In this document: piece by piece, positions 3,748 through 62,305 of the stretch | How the letters are laid out: each line of letters begins with the position of its first letter | Numbering within the stretch: the first letter of the stretch is position 1 | DNA from: Cyanodermella asteris | Taxonomy: Eukaryota; Ascomycota; Lecanoromycetes; Ostropales; Stictidaceae | Length of the DNA stretch: 64,000 bases | Direction: 5' to 3' | Assembly: GCA_900618795.1 (NCBI GenBank) | Contig: UYJD01000001.1 | Coordinates: forward strand, 2,560,823-2,624,822 | Notes under the pieces: generated by a model | What the model was told of the DNA's origin: nothing | Seen by the model: only the letters and a program-made list of their open reading frames with translations | Database searches by the model: none | Translations under genes and position numbers: made by a program

Positions 3748-5028
3748 ATGCTGGCCATCTCGATGCTTCTGCTCCCTGTGCTTGCATTCGTCGTGGGAGT
3801 GCGAGCACAGGGCCAGTTTATAACGCCCCCAGCCACTGGTATGAAGACATCGAACCTGCGCACAAGACGACAGATACTAACGTGTGTTCGCAGGGGCTGT
3901 TCATGATTATTCGGAGAACCCTACATACACTGTCGGAGACCATCTCGACATCCAATGGCAGTCAAACGCACCGATCATAAGCCTATGGCTCTGGCAGAAT
4001 GACAACCCGAACGCGGAGACGTTGCTTGACTCTGTCGAGAACACAGGTAGCCTGAGCTGGAAAATTAACACAGACAAGGACTACAGCAAGCAGTCTGGTA
4101 CCAATGGCACCGTATTCTTCATGCAACTAGTCGCCGGTGGGGGTGTGAGCGGACGAACAGGGTACGAGACTTCGAAGAAAGCCCACGTGGGCATCAGAAG
4201 ATGGCTGGCTGATTGCTCTATAGATCACACTACTTCAATCTGACTGGCCCGCTGTCTCCGTCTTCTTCAGGCTCAGCAACCTCAACAGCCACGGCAAATA
4301 GTCAGGTGGAAGTTAGCGAGAGCACTGCATCAACAGCTACTAGTAGCACTATCATGACGTCCTCTACCACATCTGTCTCGACGAGCAGTCCAACAGCTAC
4401 TAGTAGCACTATCATGACGTCCTCTACCACACCTGTCTCGACGAGCAGTCCAACAGCTGGTGCTGGTGGCAGCAACAAACCGTCTGCCGACTCCGCAAAC
4501 CAGTCCGCTACCCCAACACCTACCCCAGCCAGCAGCACAGCAGACCGTTCAGGCCTTGCCGCAGGACTGGGTGTTGCGTTCGGTCTAGTCTTCGCCGGCC
4601 TCATCGGCGCGATGATCTACATCTTTGTGCGACGTCGCAAAGCTAAAGCAGCCAAGCGACTGGCACAGCATCACGAAGAGATGGCGCAGCAGAGTCTGTA
4701 CCAGGGCATCGGCGCAGCAGGCGTCGCCGCCGCCGCAAGAACATCGAAATCGATCAGCCCTCCGGCGCCGACGTACTCGGGCGCGGGTGGCTATTTTGCA
4801 CCCACAGGCGAGAAGCAGCAACTTGCGCCAGTGGAGATGATGGACGGGAGACAAACGCAGGATTACGCGGTTGGCACAGAGAGTGGGCTGACAAGGGTGC
4901 ATGAAATGAGTGCCGGAGGCCAAGGTATTTCGCGAGGGTCAGGGAGCGTTCGGCATATCAGTGGTGTGCATGAGATGTCTGTTCGTACCAGGGGCAACAG
5001 TAATGGTATACACACCGAGGAAGGGTGA
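3748..5028 (+). CDS. Kre9/Knh-domain, Ser/Thr-rich single-pass membrane protein
   Basis: Three exons (3748-3838, 3894-4161, 4224-5028) give about 387 residues. Both introns (55 and 62 bp) keep frame, and the first has a perfect ACTAAC branch site. The start at 3748 opens a clear signal peptide (MLAISMLLLPVLAFVVG, ending near VRAQG). Residues about 25-125 match the Kre9/Knh1-like N-terminal domain, with the YTVGDHLDIQW and ISLWLWQND strands typical of that beta fold. A Ser/Thr-rich stalk follows, including a duplicated 20-residue unit. Then comes a transmembrane helix (LGVAFGLVFAGLIGAMIYIF) with an RRRKAK stop-transfer and a cytoplasmic tail of roughly 120 residues. Related proteins are cell-wall or plasma-membrane glycoproteins. 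This one is anchored by a helix rather than GPI. No enzymatic role is known for the domain, and a wall-sensor role is only a guess. Confidence 0.8.
4331..4450 (+). repeat. Two-copy 60-bp tandem repeat in the Ser/Thr stalk
   Basis: The units 4331-4390 and 4391-4450 are identical except for one base (acatct versus acacct), so one Ser becomes Pro. The repeat encodes two 20-residue Ser/Thr units of the extracellular stalk. Such near-identity implies a recent in-frame duplication of the kind that produces stalk-length polymorphism in fungal wall proteins. Confidence 0.95.
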
Positions 5029-7070: not shown

Positions 7071-7271
7071 CTAGAGTCCTGCTAATAGAATCGAAATTAT
7101 GTACACAATTCCACCAACAGATGCCGCCGGTGCGACTTGATTCGACGACCCTGCATTTGAGCTAGCAGTCATGCTCGCCGTCGCGGACCCCGTCGTTTGC
7201 ACAGTCTCAGTAGGCGCGCTCGTCGACGCCGAAGTCGTCACCGGATTCGTTCCATTCTCACCGCCCTGAAG
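7071..7271 (-). other. In-frame GPI-anchor signal directly behind the protease stop codon
   Basis: Reading leftward from the TGA at 7274-7272, the same frame stays open for 66 more codons, to a TAG at 7073-7071. The extension is a textbook GPI-attachment tail. It has a Ser/Thr-rich linker (NPVTTSASTSAPTETVQTT), a small-residue cluster suited to the omega site (SSNAGSSN), a short spacer, and a hydrophobic C-terminus (GGIVYIISILLAGL) with no charged residue at the end. The flanking codons are TTG TGA CTT CAG. The only GT...AG that removes just the stop would be 10 bp, which is not a credible intron and would also break frame. The tail is either reached by stop-codon read-through or is a remnant cut off by a recent nonsense change. 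Confidence 0.7.
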
Positions 7272-8381
7272 TCACAATGAAGCTTTATCGGCGAATCCGA
7301 GGCGAGAGTTCTGGTGATCGAAAACAACAAATTTCTGGTCCAGGAGGCTTGCGCCAAGGTTGTATCCTGTCTGAACCGAGTCGTCCAATCGTCCGTTGCA
7401 CGTTCCCGTCTGACCCTTTTGGGGCGGTGTGACAAGGTACGTACCATTCAGCACAATCTTTCCACCGTCCTGCAGTTGCAGAGTGAGATCGGGCGGCGGA
7501 TAGTTTGCGCAAGGGTAGTCGTGCGAGTTGCCAGGGGACGGTTTGCCGCCAAAGGACTCAAAGTAGGGGTTCACAATCTCGGCAGGCAGGCCAATGTTCG
7601 GTCCGCCAGTGTCAACGATGCCAGTGAAGGTGTTGGCCTTCTGAATTGTCTTGTCACCGATGGCAAAGCCGGTGAAGTTGACGTTCCAGTTTGTCTTGCT
7701 GGTGTCAACCCTGCCCCATGAGATGTCGCCCTTATACTTGTTCTTGTCGATGTATCCAAAGTCAAAGGTCCCGTTGCGGTCACCGTAGAGGTTGACAGCG
7801 AAAAGGTATGGCATGGGCAGGTTGGCACCGGCCCGGTACCAAAAGGCTTGATCGCGCGGTAACCAGGTTTTGGGGTCGCCGCTTTGACGACCGAGGCCCA
7901 TGGTGGCTGCTTGGCCTGAAGAAAATGTGCCCGGACCGAGCCTGTTGGTGACCCCGAAAGCCATCTGCTTGGCAGTCAAGCCAGCAGTCGCAATGTCATC
8001 AAGTCCCATCGAGCAATTAGTTGGTGATCCACCGCAGTTATAAGCGTCCTTGGGATCATTCTCGTCGTGATAAGTGGATGAGGCGTCGGGGTTGTAGAGA
8101 GCGGGAAGCCCCTGGGTCTCCGTCTTGTTCTTGTCTCTTGTCGACGCGACATAGGTAAATGTAGAACCGGAATCCAATGCAACGGGAATCTTCTGCCCAC
8201 CAAAGGTGAAATCGACAACGACGTGGTTGGTCGCTGGCGATGAAGCGCTCGCTCGCTTCTCAAGATCGGAGTACGTGCGGCGAGCGGAAACGGAAAAGCC
8301 TTGAGGCTGAACAGGAGAGGAGAATGCAGTGCTTGCCAGCAAGCCCACAGCCAGACCCGATGTAAGTGAAACGGGCGGCAT
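7272..8381 (-). CDS. Secreted aspartic-protease-like protein (pepsin A1 family), atypical active site
   Basis: A single exon of 369 residues. It opens with a signal peptide (hydrophobic to about residue 20, then SSPVQPQGF) and a propeptide ending at the dibasic site LEKR, a Kex2-type processing point. The first active-site loop reads ALDSGSTFTYV and the second GIVDTGGPNIGLP. Both catalytic Asp residues are present, but the usual DTGS and DTGT/S have become DSGS and DTGG. The pepsin C-terminal strand (FVVFDHQNSRLGFA) is intact, followed at once by the stop. There is no convincing flap tyrosine motif (YxxGS) in the Cys-rich segment NCGGSPTNCSMG. Fungal relatives of the yapsin/OpsB type carry a GPI signal at this position, and here that signal sits just past the TGA. 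Whether it cleaves peptides is uncertain. Confidence 0.8.
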   Translation of the reverse strand: MPPVSLTSGLAVGLLASTAFSSPVQPQGFSVSARRTYSDLEKRASASSPATNHVVVDFTFGGQKIPVALDSGSTFTYVASTRDKNKTETQGLPALYNPDASSTYHDENDPKDAYNCGGSPTNCSMGLDDIATAGLTAKQMAFGVTNRLGPGTFSSGQAATMGLGRQSGDPKTWLPRDQAFWYRAGANLPMPYLFAVNLYGDRNGTFDFGYIDKNKYKGDISWGRVDTSKTNWNVNFTGFAIGDKTIQKANTFTGIVDTGGPNIGLPAEIVNPYFESFGGKPSPGNSHDYPCANYPPPDLTLQLQDGGKIVLNGTYLVTPPQKGQTGTCNGRLDDSVQTGYNLGASLLDQKFVVFDHQNSRLGFADKASL

Positions 8382-53946: not shown

Positions 53947-56203
53947 AAGGTGTTGCTTCCAGGGACCACGTCAAAACACATGGCCTGTAGATGGTGGGCA
54001 CGAGAGTGCAGCCACAGTATCTTTTGCATTTACGCTTCTAGAGCGATGGTTGCGCCTTCAGTCTTCCGCACTCCATAATGGAGGTGGAAGGAATAATAGA
54101 AAAGCAGTGTCAAGTAACACTCCATATAATTCCGAATGGTTTGGCTTGAGTGCTCGAACAAGTACCTACATGGCTGATCATTTGCACAGCTATCTTTTCA
54201 AGTGCCTAGCTGAGCAATTGCGTGAGTACTTGACACAGTCTTTGACGAAGTTCCAATACATCGTTGACAGCCAAATGCTTAGGTTGATCTCCAACTGAAA
54301 AGACTGACAAGCACCGGATCATATATCTGGTCAAACGTCCAGCCATGAAGACATTCAAGCACGTCGAGTCGTAGATCGCCGAGCCAAGTGCGGTGGGGAA
54401 ACGAGGGCACACTTCCTCGTCCAGCAGCGTATGCAGTTGGCCACTTTCTGCAAGGGGCATTGATGACCTCGCTCGGCGAGACCTTGGGGATTATCACAAT
54501 GTCATGCTGCTAAAACCGTGCCTGCTCACCGCCTCGCGACAAAAGGACGGTACGGCTGAAGAAACGAACGGCAGCACTGCGGGTCTGCCGATGATATAAT
54601 AAGCTGACGGCCGCCAGTCTCACGCTCTCCTATTGATGCATTCTTGCTGATTTCCAAGGTCTGCTTTTTTTCTTTTCTTACTGACGTCTGCCCTGAGATC
54701 CTAGGACGCAATTCCTGGCGTCCTCCTCGATCGGTCAGCAACAATGCTCGTCGCAGGTTCTCACATCGTACACCTCGAGCGACTGACAGCCAAACGAAAG
54801 CGTTTCTCACGTGCATGGGCTGTCCGAGGCCCGAGGGAACACCCTGCAGTCAGGTAAGCCATTCACGACTTCTTCTCGACGCAAAAGCGACATGTTCTCG
54901 CAGCTCGAGGCAATGAATCGGCGATACTTCCGACTTTTCAGCCGGCGTCTGCGTAGCGTCCAAGCCGCCAGTCGACGGAGCAGCGTCTCTGCACGGACGA
55001 AACTTCTTGGGAATCAGGGCGCTCAATCACGCTTCGTCGTTCGGGGCGCACGCAGCGGGCCGACTCAGCGCCATGGAAGCGGGCTGCTGTGGGTTGGGCA
55101 GCCCGGCATAAGCTCGTCAAGAAAACGAAGCAGAGACGGCCAGTCGGAGCGACTCGAGACGCGAATTTGTACCTCGACGACCTACAGTACATGGTCTGCT
55201 CAGATACATCGCCTGGCTGCATTGCATGCTTTCGCACGAGGCCACCCGCCCTCCACATCGCCAAACTCCAAAGTCGCGCAGGCCGTCTCTCATCGGTCCA
55301 CTCGTCGCCGCCGAGTAACTGGACATTACTCATGCGGTGGCCGGTACCAATGTCAAGATCATCGAACCAACCCGGCCGGGGTTGACCAGGTCAAGCCCCA
55401 GATTCCATTTTCTGTGGCTTCCCGCACAGCTGTCGCATCGCCAGATTTCTGCTCAGCAAAAGCACAGGGGTCCAATTCGCTCTCTGACGTGGCTGCGTGG
55501 GATTGCACTGATGGTGAAAGCAAAATCATCATTCTACGTACTCTCTGCATGCCACCGCTGCATCCGCCGCTTTCCGGCCTCGCTCCTCCTTGCTCTGCTG
55601 CCCAAATGCTCCGATCACACTTGTCAAGCTGCTATCCACCGAGTCTGTGCCCAATTGGGCCTCTATGCCATCTTATCTGCCAACTATGTCGTCGCCGATG
55701 GACTCACTTGGCTTCGAGTCCCGGCACTACACCCTCTTGCCCTGAGGTCGACCGACCATCTCTGCCCTACCAACCTCTCCAATCTTGCATCCATCCCCAG
55801 TTCTTCGTCTAGGCCCCTGCCCTCACCTCTACTTTGTTGGCCTAGCTACAAGTCATCTCCACAGTCTTGTCACACTGCATTCGCATTGGTCGCTCGGCCA
55901 GACTTGCTCTCATTGGGGGCTAACCTGCCTTTCAATCTCTTCTCACCTACACCATTTGTCGCTCTGCACCTTGTATCATTATTTCCCACCTAATCCACCA
56001 CCCAAATCATTAAGCAGTAGTCCGTGGGTATGAAGAGAGTCGACGCCCTGCAGGTGTAGAAGTTCGAGCTCTCGTCGAGTGACACTCCGTGTGCTCACCC
56101 TCTCCAGGGACTCACCTCTGCTCGCCGGATAATACCGACTGGCCACACCTTCTATCCCACCTGTAGCAACGCATTATCGGTGCGAATTTGAGCACCATTC
56201 AGT
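53947..56203. other. Long intergenic region and leader of the giant disordered protein gene
   Basis: About 2.3 kb. A 333-codon frame (54811-55812) overlaps antisense and alternative frames of similar length in GC-rich sequence, lacks any motif, and changes character halfway (Arg/Ser-rich, then Leu/Cys/Pro-rich), so I do not call it. From about 55550 to 56180 the plus strand is CT-rich, as in fungal leaders. A small spliced gene near 54730-54860 (a GTAAGC donor at 54856) cannot be excluded. Confidence 0.4.
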
Positions 56204-59200
56204 ATGGCACCCAAGCCAAAATACGCAGCGCCTCCCGTCTGGTCATATCAACAGTTCAACTACGACAACGTCAAGTTCACCAACATCCCTCTATGGGAGG
56301 CAAACAAGAAGCCGAGGAAGTACGCTTTCGAAGATGATGCAAAGGACGATGACAGTGACGCGGAAACTGGCTCCGATTCGTCGGAAGCAGCTGATGCCGA
56401 GCCCAAGGAGGAGCCGTCACCAGCTGCCTCCGAGTCCCCGTCTGTTGATGCAAGCGGTGATGGCGGTGGCGACGGCGAAGCCAAGGATGGCGAGGATGAC
56501 AACAATGGTATTGCAAATGTCGCCTGTCGCATGAATGACCTCGAAGCTAATGCCAAACAGGTACGGAGAGCACAGAGACAAAGCCTACAGCCGACGAGAC
56601 GTCGCCGCCCGCCGACGCAGCGCCATTAGACCCTGCCAGTGACGCAAGTACTGCTCCCGATGCCGACACTTCTCCTGAAGAGGGAACTGCGGAAGAGAAG
56701 GTGCCAGAAGCAGACACACCGAGTGAAGATGCAACTGCTCCGACAGAGCCCTCGCCAGAGACGTCAGAACCAATAGACCAGAGTCCTGAAGAATCGACGA
56801 CGGGCGAGGCCGATTCTCCACCTCAAGAAGAAAAGGAACCTGCGGAGGAAGGTGCCAAACCCAAAGATGTCGTGAAGGCAGATGAGGGGGCTGCGGAAGC
56901 CTCCAACGCTGAGTCCCCTGTCGAGCAGAAGACGGATCCTGAACCTGATGCGTCTGCACCAGAAGCAACTCCCGCGGCACCAAGTGCAAGTGAAGAGGAC
57001 AAGGTAGAGGTTCAGGCCGACGATAAGCTTCAGGATTCTCTTGCCCCGGGTGACGCACAATCAGCTGAGCCTGAATCGAACGTGGACGCTCCGCCCCCGG
57101 CTCCCACCCCTCCAATCTCGGCCGAAGATGACACTCCGCCAGAACCGAAGCCGGAAAAGCACGTCACTATCGAAGAGCCTTCTAAGTCAAAGAAGTCGAA
57201 GCGACCTGGAAAGAAGAGTCGAGAACCAAAGTCCAAATCCAAGTCCAAAAACAAAGACCTCGAGCAGTCCCCAGACCAAGATGTCGACGATGCCGAAGAG
57301 ACCGTTGTTCTGAAGCAATCAAAGTCAAAGAAAAAGGCGAAGGCATTGATAAGAGAAAGGAAGAAGAAAGGTTCAAGCAAGTCTTCGACGGCCACGGTGG
57401 ACGAAGGCCCCGTTGAAACGTCGCCACCAGCCCAAGATGCACCAGCTGAGCCTGAAGAGGCCCAGTCAGTCAGTGGCGAAGTCAATGCCTCATCGACCAA
57501 GGATTCGAGCCCTTCAGACACACTTGAAAGCACCGGACCCAGCGAGACGCCTGAAGACCGTGCTGACGACAAGGTCTCCACCGAAGCAGAGGAGGTGACC
57601 ACTGACCCCACTTCCGGCGATGAGCCCAAATCTGAGACCGCAGAAGCGGACAAGGCTGACGAAGTTGACGAGAGCAAAGAAATAGGAGATCCAGATGACG
57701 TATCTGTGAAAGATGCTGCAAGCGAACCTGCCGCAGAAGAGCCGAAGACGGAGACTGCCGCCACCGAAGAGCCCACAACCGGCCTTGAAGACCAGCAAGC
57801 CGAAGCGACCGAAGCGAAATCAGAGGATGCAAATCTAGATTCTACGGAAAAGAACCCTGAAGAGGCATCAACTGATCCCTCACCCGTTGACGTACCAGAG
57901 GCGGAGAACGCATCAGACGACGCAGGGAAGCCCGAGAACACAGCTGAGGCGCCAGCAGAAACTGTCGCAGGAACTAAGGAGGAATCGACCAAACCCGATG
58001 CGCAGGATGCAGAAGAAATTACACCGGAAAATGCTCCCGAGCCTGGAGAGGAACCGCAGCCAACTGAACCTCCTTCAGCAACTGCTGGCGCTCCGACCGA
58101 GTGTGCGGAGGTACCTGCTCCTGATGACACGATAGTCGAGTCAGATGTCCCAGCTCCTTCGCAAGACGAGCCGGCACCTGCGACCACCGAAACAGAGAAT
58201 GTCAACGATGCGTCAAACGCTGCGATAAAGGACGCAGCAGAGGATGATAGCGTGGATGGCCCGGTCAACGAGCATCCCGAGGAAAATCCGGCTGGTGGGG
58301 ACAATGAATCCGAGTAAGTGATATTTCTTCCTCCTATACAGATCTGTGCTCCTGTTGCACACAACATGCGACGACTTTGTCCTTGTAATGACCGACATGT
58401 TGTTGAACGTGCGAGTCGACGAGATACTCAACAAAGCTCCTCCGTTTATCGCGGGTACACCCGCTCAGCACCGAGACATGTCTCGCGTTCGGATCGCAGC
58501 TGATCACTTACAACCAGGGACCCCACTCCACCCACCACATCTGAAGAAATCGACGATTCCGAGTCTCCTGAGGACAAAACTGCGAAGCTGCCAGGCGCAT
58601 TGCCCGAATCTGACGAAGAGCCTATGGAGCAAGAGAACAAGGCTGAGGCTAACGACGACAAGGCAGACGACAGCGGAAATACATCCAAGGACGAGCCTCC
58701 TGCTGAGGTTGCCGAATCAAAGGATGAGGACGCCACCGCAGTCGTAGTGGACGGTGATACAGCGGAGCAGGACAAAGAAAACACTTCTCCAGGTACTCTC
58801 GAGCTTGATACGGAGACAGCCGCGGAGGAAACACTTGAGGAAACGTCTAAGACGGACGTGTCTGAAAGCTCGCCTGTTGAGGAACCCGTCGAAGCAGCCG
58901 ACAAGCAAGTCGAGGACACCGGAGCATCACAAGAAGATACCTCAGCCAAGCCCGATCAATCGACGGAGATGCCTGACGAATCTCCCGCTGGAAATATTGC
59001 CGAGCCCCCTGCAGAGGAACCAGAGGCGACCACTGAGCAGCCCACCACCGAAAGCCCAGAGCATGCTCCTGAAGATGCAGCTGAGGACGTACCTGCCCCT
59101 ACTGGCGAGGCTGACGAGAAGGTCTCTGGGATCGAGAACCCGCCTCTCGATGACGCCACGGTTGAAGCTGTTGATGCCCAAGCCAGCGATGAGTCGGCTG

Positions 59201-61596
59201 CGCCAGCTCCAGAAGCCAGTAAGGAAGAAGCTGGCGAGACCGACGAGGTCGAGTCAGAAGCCAAGAATGCCGACTCGACGTCAGAGCCAGTAGACTCGCC
59301 TGACACGGAGCCTCAGCAGGATTCAGAAGATAAGCCTACAGATGAGGCGACTGCTGAGACTGATGCGCCAGCCGAAAAGTCGTCAGACGAGCCTCAACCC
59401 GAGGCGAAAGTCGAAGACGAAGGTCAAGATCTGGCAGAAGTCGCGGAGGTGCAGGACGACAAGACTAGCGCAGCAATCTCTGAGGAATCTACACCTGAGG
59501 ACCCAATGGCCGAGGCTAGCGAAGCAGAAAAGCCAACGGATGCTGCACCTGCAGAAGAGGATAAAGTCGCTTCCGTAGCTGTGGAAGAGCCAGACCCGCC
59601 TGAGACGGCTCCTGAGGTCAGCCCGGTAGAAGACGATCCAAAGCCGGCCGATGATGAGCAGGCTCCTGGTGAGGACAAGGCAGCAACTGAAGAGCCTGCA
59701 CCGGCCGAGGAACCAGCACTAGCTGAAAACTCAGCTCCTATTGAAGAGCCAGCATCCGCTGAAGATACGAATCCAGCTGGTCCGTTGACCGATGAACCTA
59801 GTGCTGCCGAGCAAGCACCTAGTGAACAGGCTACTGGCGAAGAAGCATCCCGGGACGCCCAAGAAGCAGCTGCTCCTGCTGGTGAAGACTCGTCTCCAAA
59901 AGACGACACTCCTACAGAGGAGGCCAAAGAATCCGAGCCAGAGACTCAAGAGCCTGCACAGGAAGAAGCGGCTGAAGTTCCGGCCGAACCAGGTACGCCC
60001 GCTTATCTCTACTTACCTGCTTGCGTACTCGGGCAGCTGCCGATATGGCTCTGCCTTTGCCTGTAAGCAGTCTAACATCCAGAATCTGTAATTCGCCCCA
60101 GTATTTGCTTTTACTATCAGACTGCCTTTGAGAGATATACCCAAGAATCCAATCCGTTCATCATAAAACTTGAGGTCTTGAATATTCCACGTAAACTGAC
60201 CGGCCGGGTAGCAGAGCCAGAGGCTTCAGAGCGCGTACCGTCAGTCGAAGACGTACCAGCCGGCCCAGAGGCTAGTAACGCGGCTCCCACGCCTCCGAGC
60301 GAAGACGAGCCTGTCGTCGAAGCCACGCCCGAGACCCCTCCAGGCCCTGACGCCCTCCCAACACCTCCGACCTCGCCGAAAGAACGCAAGTCCCACAGAC
60401 TCAAGACAGGCACGGATCGCGATCGTCGAAAGTCCTCCGCTCCATATGAGACACGACAAGTCCGGCGCCGTGACACCATGGACAGCGCCACACGGCCCAA
60501 GGAACTAAAGGCAAAAAGTTCCGCCATCATCCGAGACGGCCCACCTCGACTTCGAAGATCGTCAACCATGCAATCCTCCGAGCCGAGCAAAAAGGAAAAG
60601 GAAAAGGAAAAAGAACAGCCCAAGTCTGGTGGTGGTGGTGGTGGAGGAGGAGGAGGAGGGCTCTTCGGCCTCTTCAAATCGAACCCCAAACCAACTCCCA
60701 AGGTCAGCAAAGAAAAAGACAAGCACGCCGCATCGACCGAGAAACGTTCGTCAAAGGAGAAACTCCCGGAACGTCCTTCGACCGCCAAATCGAGTGGTTC
60801 CAAAAACGAAAAGCCCGAACCCGACGCCAAGCACCGCCGCCACGGGCCGCGCGAAGGCGAAACGGACGAAGCGTACTCGCGCCGAAAAGCCGAGCGACGC
60901 GCCGAAAAGGAGCGAGCACGGAAAGAGGAGGAGGAAGACAAGATCCGCCGGGCGGCGCGCGAGGCCGCCAAAGTCACGCTCGACGAACACAAGGCCACCG
61001 AAGAGGAGGCGCGTCGGAAACGGCACGAGGAGCGAAAGGCGCGCAAAGCCGCCGAGGAAGCTCGGAAAGTCGAAGGGGACGACGCCGTCGTCGTGGATGG
61101 CGGTGCTGCCGAAGCTTCACCGCCTGCTCTCGAGCCGGAAGCGCTCCCGCGCGAGGAGCCGAGTGGGAAGGAGAAGGAGAAGGAGAAGGAGAAGGAGCGC
61201 AAGCACCGTTCCTCTAATCATCATCATCACCACCACCACCATCGCAGATCCTCGCGCACCGATAAACCCGGCCAAGACCGCGACCGCGACCGCGAACCGC
61301 GTCGCCACCGGCGCTCGAGCCCCGACGACGCCGGGCCCAGCGAAGCCCGGCGCGTCGTCCGCAAGGAAGAGAGGCAGCGAGAGTCCGGCGGGAGCAGCCG
61401 TGGATCGCAGGGCGATGCGCGCGAAGCGAGCGAACAACGCAGGGAGAAGAGGAGGAGCGTGCGTCCCGTGGAGGGAGAAGGCAGCGGGAGTAAAGCGAGG
61501 GCCACACGGCACAGGAAGGTTGCGGAGCCGGTGAAGAAGGAAATGGACAAGGCGGGTTCGAAGCCGGGATTGTTCAAGAAGCTGTTTAGTGCTTGA
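56204..61596 (+). CDS. Giant intrinsically disordered polyampholyte protein
   Basis: Four exons, 56204-56507, 56561-58313, 58518-59992 and 60212-61596, all joined in phase (introns 53, 204 and 219 bp), give about 1638 residues. The N-terminal 45 residues are the only ordered-looking part (PPVWSYQQFNYDNVKFTNIPLWEANKKPRKYAF contains the landmark). About 1100 residues of Glu/Ala/Pro/Ser/Thr/Asp-rich sequence follow, with loose repeats (EEPxPAEE, SxEPTTG) and a Lys/Ser island (KSKKSKRPGKKSREPKSKSK) near residue 310. From about residue 1200 composition flips to basic: KKEKEKEKE, a nine-Gly run, RRKAERRAEKERARKEEEEDKIRRAAREAAK (a charged single helix), a His run and RDRDRDRE. It ends with LFKKLFSA. 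No family recognised. Confidence 0.75.
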
Positions 61597-62305
61597 TCAA
61601 ACTTTTTTTTTGGCATTTGGAGGATTGAGATTGGAGCGTTTTCGGCTTTGACGAACAGGAGGGTAATAAATGATGCACCTACGAGGTCACTGATTGATGA
61701 ATTATGATCGGGTCATGTAAAATACATGTTTCACGGCGTGTCTAATTATGGGTTTTGGATTGACTTGGGCCCCAGGGATTACATAATTGAAGCTCACGAT
61801 GGACCAATACTGATCCAAACAATACCTTTCACGGCAAGAGAACACGTTGCGACGTTGAGTGATAAGCATGTATAGAAAATAATATGGCTTCATATGTACA
61901 AAACGCCATGTGTCTGTCTGGCAGACAATTGGCAATGAAAGCTCATTATTGCCCTGAAGTTTGCAATCCAGTACCGCGAAACAAGAGTGTGCGCGATGAC
62001 TGTCCGCCGGATGTAAATGACCAATATGGTACAAGGAGTGAGCAAGTAGACGCTGAATAAGGCCAAAGCCACCCCGTGGATACCATTACCCCTTTTGGTC
62101 TGCCCGCACAGCTCATCAGCTCCCTGAGATGATGATGTTTGCCCCCCGAATTCTTAGTAATGCGCCTTTCTAACTCCGATCCTGTGTCAAATTCGTGATA
62201 TCGTTGGGATCATGAGTCACGCGGAACGCCGATCGCCTGGTTGATGTCTGGCTCTGATCTATCACGACTGGGTAGTCGTGGGTCGAGCGGATTCGGGTAG
62301 TCTCC
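61597..62305. other. Convergent 3' region
   Basis: About 0.7 kb between the giant disordered gene and the bZIP gene. It begins with an eight-T run (61604-61612 area) and is AT-rich. Only chance open frames occur. Confidence 0.5.

Follow-up and report, generated by a model that had tools for sequence, protein, structure and literature searches.

A UGA CUU stop codon between an aspartic protease and a GPI-like tail in Cyanodermella asteris: a possible case of stop-codon read-through

The GPI-anchored aspartic proteases of fungi, the yapsins and their relatives, carry an A1 (pepsin-like) domain, a Ser/Thr linker and a GPI-like hydrophobic end in one reading frame. The same order is found at a locus of Cyanodermella asteris, in the 64,000-nucleotide stretch of contig UYJD01000001.1 that was analysed here as a whole (the window), with the difference that only at the window locus does a stop codon stand between enzyme and tail. 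The aspergillopepsin-type proteases (1ibq, endothiapepsin, penicillopepsin) share with the window protease both the domain and the C-terminal end after a GFA motif; their solved chains finish there, tailless, though the window protein is only distantly related to them. A second comparison is with genes read past a UGA codon. Efficient read-through in U. maydis takes no more than a CU directly behind the UGA, and UGA CU is the minimal core in fungi (PMC4207609). The systems described there, U. maydis Tpi1, Rpe1 and Art1 and human LDHB and MDH1, resemble the window locus in having UGA-CU followed by an in-frame C-terminal targeting extension, and the dual location from one mRNA that is known there for cryptic PTS1 isoforms is the behavior we propose for the window locus. 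The extensions in those systems are short PTS1 signals, whereas that of the window locus is a GPI-like signal of 66 residues on a probably secreted protein; the window locus also has U as the third base after the stop and, unlike them, is known from sequence alone.

The window gene is on the minus strand. Its frame starts with ATG at 8381 and runs for 369 codons (7275-8381), the last residues being RLGFADKASL, so that the TGA at 7274-7272 lies five residues beyond the conserved GFA with which the protease fold closes, as judged from the sequence, phmmer and alignment. The codons around this stop are TTG TGA CTT CAG GGC, and beyond it the frame stays open for 66 codons (7271-7074) until a TAG at 7073-7071. 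The original prediction had described a protease frame with a GPI-like tail behind a single TGA; that observation is confirmed, and its coordinates, the TTG TGA, the CTT CAG and the 66 open residues match the sequence. Elsewhere in the window, a Ser/Thr-rich protein with one transmembrane-like stretch followed by a basic stretch is encoded on the plus strand at 4213-5028; it has no Pfam match at 1e-5 and resembles the wall-sensor type. The segment from 56000 to 62000 has a strong AT skew (0.28 to 0.35) and long overlapping open frames on both strands. No match to 5.8S rRNA was obtained in the assembly, where 39 of 1016 first-look candidates were scored, and the rDNA may be missing or have been missed.

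Sequence comparison shows that the body forms an entire A1 aspartic protease domain, both catalytic D-T/S-G motifs included, and proteolytic activity is predicted. Pfam Asp (PF00026) matches residues 62-365 of the 369 (E 4.6e-34; 118.7 bits against a cut-off of 19.9), and phmmer aligns residues 54-366 to aspergillopepsin 1ibq, up to residue 324 of the 325 in that chain. Membership in the A1 family takes a whole-domain match and two catalytic D-T/S-G motifs, and an alignment with 18 paralogues places both: DSG at residues 70-72 (8166-8174) and DTG at residues 257-259 (7605-7613), the latter followed by G. The N-terminus, judged by eye, has a signal-peptide-like start, a pro-region and a Kex2-like KR pair, and the protease is probably secreted. 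A single-sequence AlphaFold model of the protease (mean pLDDT 32.3) was uninformative on the fold, and searches of the protease body against prokaryote contigs and viral contigs gave 39 and 7 pattern matches, respectively, and no relative.

The tail (7074-7271) translates as LQGGENGTNPVTTSASTSAPTETVQTTGSATASMTASSNAGSSNQVAPAASVGGIVYIISILLAGL, and many of its codons end in G. A Ser/Thr-rich linker takes up tail residues 8-36 (7164-7250) and is followed at residues 37-44 (7140-7163) by SSNAGSSN, in which we infer a possible omega-site region; the peptide closes with an uncharged hydrophobic end, VGGIVYIISILLAGL, at residues 52-66 (7074-7118), the last 14 residues having a mean hydropathy of 2.29. 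The linker, the omega-like SSNAG cluster and the uncharged end that had been read from this DNA are all there. Might such a peptide arise by chance? We used a home-made rule, by which the last 24 residues must be without D, E, K or R, the last 14 must have a mean hydropathy of at least 1.2, at least 25% Ser/Thr must precede the hydrophobic end, and small residues must occupy a possible omega site. Among 2558 stop-to-stop segments of at least 40 residues, taken from the window and 30 non-overlapping loci that form a non-random sample because they were picked for protease and glycolytic genes, only three pass, of which two are the C-terminal ends of the protease paralogues L002 and L014 and the third is the window tail. 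Dinucleotide shuffling of the tail, repeated 20000 times, gave 1484 open frames, none of which passed, and 200000 random 66-codon windows, with the real tails left in, gave 40789 that were open and 39 that passed. The rule misses three of the five paralogue ends that look GPI-like by eye (L005, L007 and L015). A long open frame behind a stop is in itself ordinary here, as 5 of 57 closed ORFs of at least 200 amino acids, the window gene counted, have at least 66 open codons, and in one of the five (L013) the continuation is probably a further exon of the same protease domain; it is the GPI-like content that is rare. The features of a GPI-anchored protein, omega region, spacer and uncharged hydrophobic end, are present by the home-made rule, but behind a stop. 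In our view the tail has the appearance of genuine GPI-type coding sequence and not of a product of chance, and anchoring is predicted. A search of the own genome for a second copy of the tail matched only the tail itself.

How do the relatives of this protease end? A search of the own genome with the window protease gave 11 matches including itself, the other ten at 24-29% identity; against the 18 aligned paralogues the protein is 17-27% identical and sits on a long branch. We compared the C-termini of 23 paralogue loci whose frames reach the end (L018 is the window gene itself, and L021, L022, L027 and L028 were unusable), counting residues by eye onward from the counterpart of GFA in each. 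The stop comes 3-5 residues past the motif in ten (L001, L003, L006, L008, L009, L012, L016, L020, L024 and L025) and 7-8 residues past it in L023 and L011; in L026 the motif is changed and in L017 the end is ambiguous. Four loci run on without a GPI-like end (L004, L010, L013 and L019), and five run on into one (L002, L005, L007, L014 and L015). In L004 and L013 there are in-frame stops within the protease domain match, which are probably introns. Because ten of the 23 stop 3-5 residues past the motif and the window protein stops five past it, the window TGA marks an end of the tailless-protease type, the commonest one; 13 of the 23 do not stop in this interval.

A tree was made of 19 protease domains, one from the window and the rest from 18 of 27 further loci, leaving out L004, L012, L013, L020, L021, L022, L026, L027 and L028, which were split, partial or had no usable frame. 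FastTree places the window protein with L016, L014 and L015 (0.58), and the IQ-TREE supports nearby are 32 and 39. The G after the second catalytic motif is common to the window protein and only L014 and L015 among the 18 aligned paralogues, and both of these have uninterrupted frames with GPI-like ends; given the weakly supported tree position, the shared DTGG is only a hint. DTGG in three proteases is unusual, the other second motifs being DTGT, DSGT, DSGS or DTGS.

These comparisons bear on the chief rival to read-through, in which a GPI-anchored protease suffered a one-base change of a sense codon to TGA not long ago, only the soluble enzyme is now made, and the tail is fresh 3' UTR. Such a change would take a single substitution and call for no unfamiliar biology, five further loci for proteases have the uninterrupted GPI-like ends from which it would start (two of the five pass the GPI rule), and the divergence of the window protein, with its low identities and long branch, would fit relaxed constraint. 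Against it, some 72 codons after GFA were available to be struck, and the one struck was the sixth. We regard a young nonsense change as nearly as strong a reading as read-through, and as likewise falling short of probable.

The stop itself, with the bases that follow (TGA CTT, 7269-7274), has the UGA-CU read-through core, with U and not A as third base after the stop. The original prediction had appealed to UGA CUA as the fungal read-through signal; the published fungal core is shorter, UGA CU (PMC4207609), and CUU falls inside it. In human cells an A as the next base after UGA CU raises read-through further (PMC4207609), and the strongest contexts reported continue with A and G after UGA-CU (PMC4207609, PMC12233894); at the window stop U and C stand in these places. 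Among 66 ORFs a single TGA with CT behind it was counted, and the stops of 57 closed ORFs are TGA in 33, TAG in 12 and TAA in 12. On a plain nonsense change, CT would stand behind the TGA by chance in about 1/16 of cases with even bases. No stimulating RNA stem-loop was found after the stop: compared with shuffles, the z scores are +2.33 for 101 nt, where 199 of 200 shuffles fold at least as well, and +1.45 for 57 nt, and the mRNA behind the stop is less folded than shuffled sequence.

Do the codons of the tail look translated? Codon usage was scored as the mean log preference for synonymous codons, trained on ORFs from the sample. The protease body scores 0.117 and the tail -0.175, and scores as low as the tail's or lower occur in 3 of 511 coding windows of 66 codons, in none of 59 Ser/Thr-rich windows and in none of 5000 draws of the same peptide with genome usage. 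The last 66 codons of the five paralogues with GPI-like ends score -0.05 (L002), 0.08 (L005), 0.13 (L007), -0.03 (L014) and -0.02 (L015). Measured against the coding windows and the draws, the tail is unlike routinely translated sequence. Had it been fully translated until a short time ago, it should resemble these five ends; it scores below all of them, which tells against a young nonsense change. Nor does rare translation alone explain the tail codons, since it would give the non-coding level and the tail lies beneath that: with correction for composition, 98% of the 1601 open segments that are non-coding (mean -0.031, sd 0.074) score higher than its -0.175. Read in its other frames, the tail stretch scores between -0.056 and 0.061. 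As support for read-through the codon usage of the tail is a mixed result, and weak. The position, context and codon arguments against a nonsense change were, moreover, all formed after the case had been seen.

The age of a plain nonsense change is limited by neutral decay. The tail was mutated by random substitution, with or without 0.1 indels per substitution. Under substitution only, the share of runs that kept an open and GPI-like frame was 53%, 27% and 7% at divergences of 5%, 10% and 20%, and it fell to 20%, 3% and 0.05% once indels were added. It follows from this model that a plain nonsense change must be fairly recent, or else that the tail is under selection. A recent change of this kind is possible in any genome.

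Three further explanations dispense with both read-through and a nonsense change. The first is a one-base error of sequencing or assembly, the true gene being an uninterrupted GPI-anchored protease. One wrong base is enough for this, yet that base would have to lie close to where the domain ends and also create TGA-CT, and a genome of 28.5 Mb in 25 contigs suggests a good assembly; we think it improbable. Still less probable, to our minds, is alternative splicing that excises the TGA and joins the tail in frame. A scan of in-frame GT-AG pairs of 40-200 nt, with donors within 150 bases upstream, found 13 that would remove the TGA, and one donor, GTGACT, starts one base before it, with acceptors TGCTAG (114 nt), GGCGAG (102 nt) and GACGAG (57 nt). 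However, none of the five donors (GTGCAA, GTTCAG, GTTGTT, GTTTTC and GTGACT) has G at +5, no NCTRAY branch site occurs in any of the 13 pairs, and with ten of the 13 the excised piece would include part of the conserved final strands of the protease. Among these pairs we found none in which donor, branch site and acceptor all follow the consensus. The donor and NCTRAY consensus used are general fungal ones; a loose search of our own sample gave 16 noisy candidates, which were not used. One point on the side of splicing is the PGK stop with GTAAGTAG in the same genome, a possible splicing case. In that PGK gene (L041, minus strand) the sequence TCAA-GTAAGTAG puts the stop within a consensus donor and suggests that the C-terminus is alternatively spliced, as is known for Aspergillus PGK.

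The third is A-to-I editing of the mRNA, UGA to UGG, in sexual tissue, to which we give hardly any weight. Editing at stop codons is reported in some Pezizomycotina, and it has a strong preference for a U at -1 and for the loops of hairpins, which makes UAG and UAA its targets (PMC11156358). The A of the window stop is preceded by G and the stretch is poorly folded, which makes it a poor target. The stop correction of the PUK1 type in Fusarium likewise concerns a stop within a longer coding frame, but those stops are UAG with U at -1, whereas the window stop is UGA.

Is UGA-CU read-through used elsewhere in this genome? Five enzyme stops were compared, those of PGK (L041), RPE (L042), GAPDH (L047) and two TIM loci (L044 and L045), L043 and L046 being inner exons without a stop of their own. 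One of the five, L045, has a UGA-CU stop; the other four have TAG, or TGA in a different context. L045 is the canonical triosephosphate isomerase (TIGR00419, 137.8 bits against 130.6), its stop lies at 1933-1935 (contig C14, just past 751078), and it ends CTG TGA CTC GGG GCT AAG ATG TGA, an extension of LGAKM. The terminal AKM fits the PTS1 pattern [SAC][KRH][LM], and PTS1-like ends are found on 43 of 10933 stop-to-stop peptides. A peroxisomal read-through isoform of this triosephosphate isomerase is possible, and the combination, which would seldom come about by chance, suggests that this fungus makes use of UGA-CU read-through. The U. maydis enzyme, Tpi1, is the very one on which UGA-CU read-through was elucidated, and its gene is proven to be read through (PMC4207609).

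How, then, would one gene serve two sites? Most ribosomes would halt at the UGA (7274-7272), and the product would be a soluble protease whose terminus matches that of pepsins without a tail. A minority would decode the UGA of UGA CUU as sense and add the 66 residues; the Ser/Thr linker would extend out into the wall, and GPI transamidase would exchange the hydrophobic end for an anchor, giving a surface form. From what is observed (the frame, the complete protease domain, the GPI-like tail, the stop position and its context) we infer that read-through would occur, that the tail would function as a signal and that the proportion of the two forms would be of consequence. The dual soluble and anchored reading of the original prediction holds up in part: it is helped by the GPI-like tail, the stop position, the context and the triosephosphate isomerase case, and it is weakened by ambiguous codon usage and by a young nonsense change of almost equal standing. 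Also counting against read-through are the unusual tail codons, the missing stem-loop, the U and C after UGA-CU, the 13 of 23 paralogues that end otherwise and the single UGA-CU among five enzyme stops. Proven cases of functional read-through are, besides, rare, and this too counts against it. The stop position and the second UGA-CU case lean toward read-through, which accounts jointly for the stop position, the context and the intact tail. That one gene makes a soluble and a GPI-anchored form through read-through of UGA CUU is the reading we would choose, at a little under an even chance. The weights behind our ranking of the five explanations are judgements and were not computed.

More tentatively still, the leaky UGA CUU may set the shares of released and GPI-anchored protease, a translational switch on one mRNA that may respond to conditions affecting termination fidelity. 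The functional read-through known from fungi serves mainly peroxisomal targeting (PMC4207609), and the authors who defined UGA-CU speculated on roles beyond the known one (PMC4207609). Among the hits listed for the open-licence literature, judged by title and the start of the abstract, no report was found of read-through that adds a GPI signal, which also weighs against the read-through reading. If true, the present case would be a new use of a known mechanism, with the GPI signal as a clear second role for read-through, outside the cell, and further examples would be easy to search for in fungal genomes as TGA-CT ORFs with a GPI-like in-frame extension. If the TGA is instead a nonsense change, the locus would illustrate anew how one base may turn a surface enzyme into a free one.
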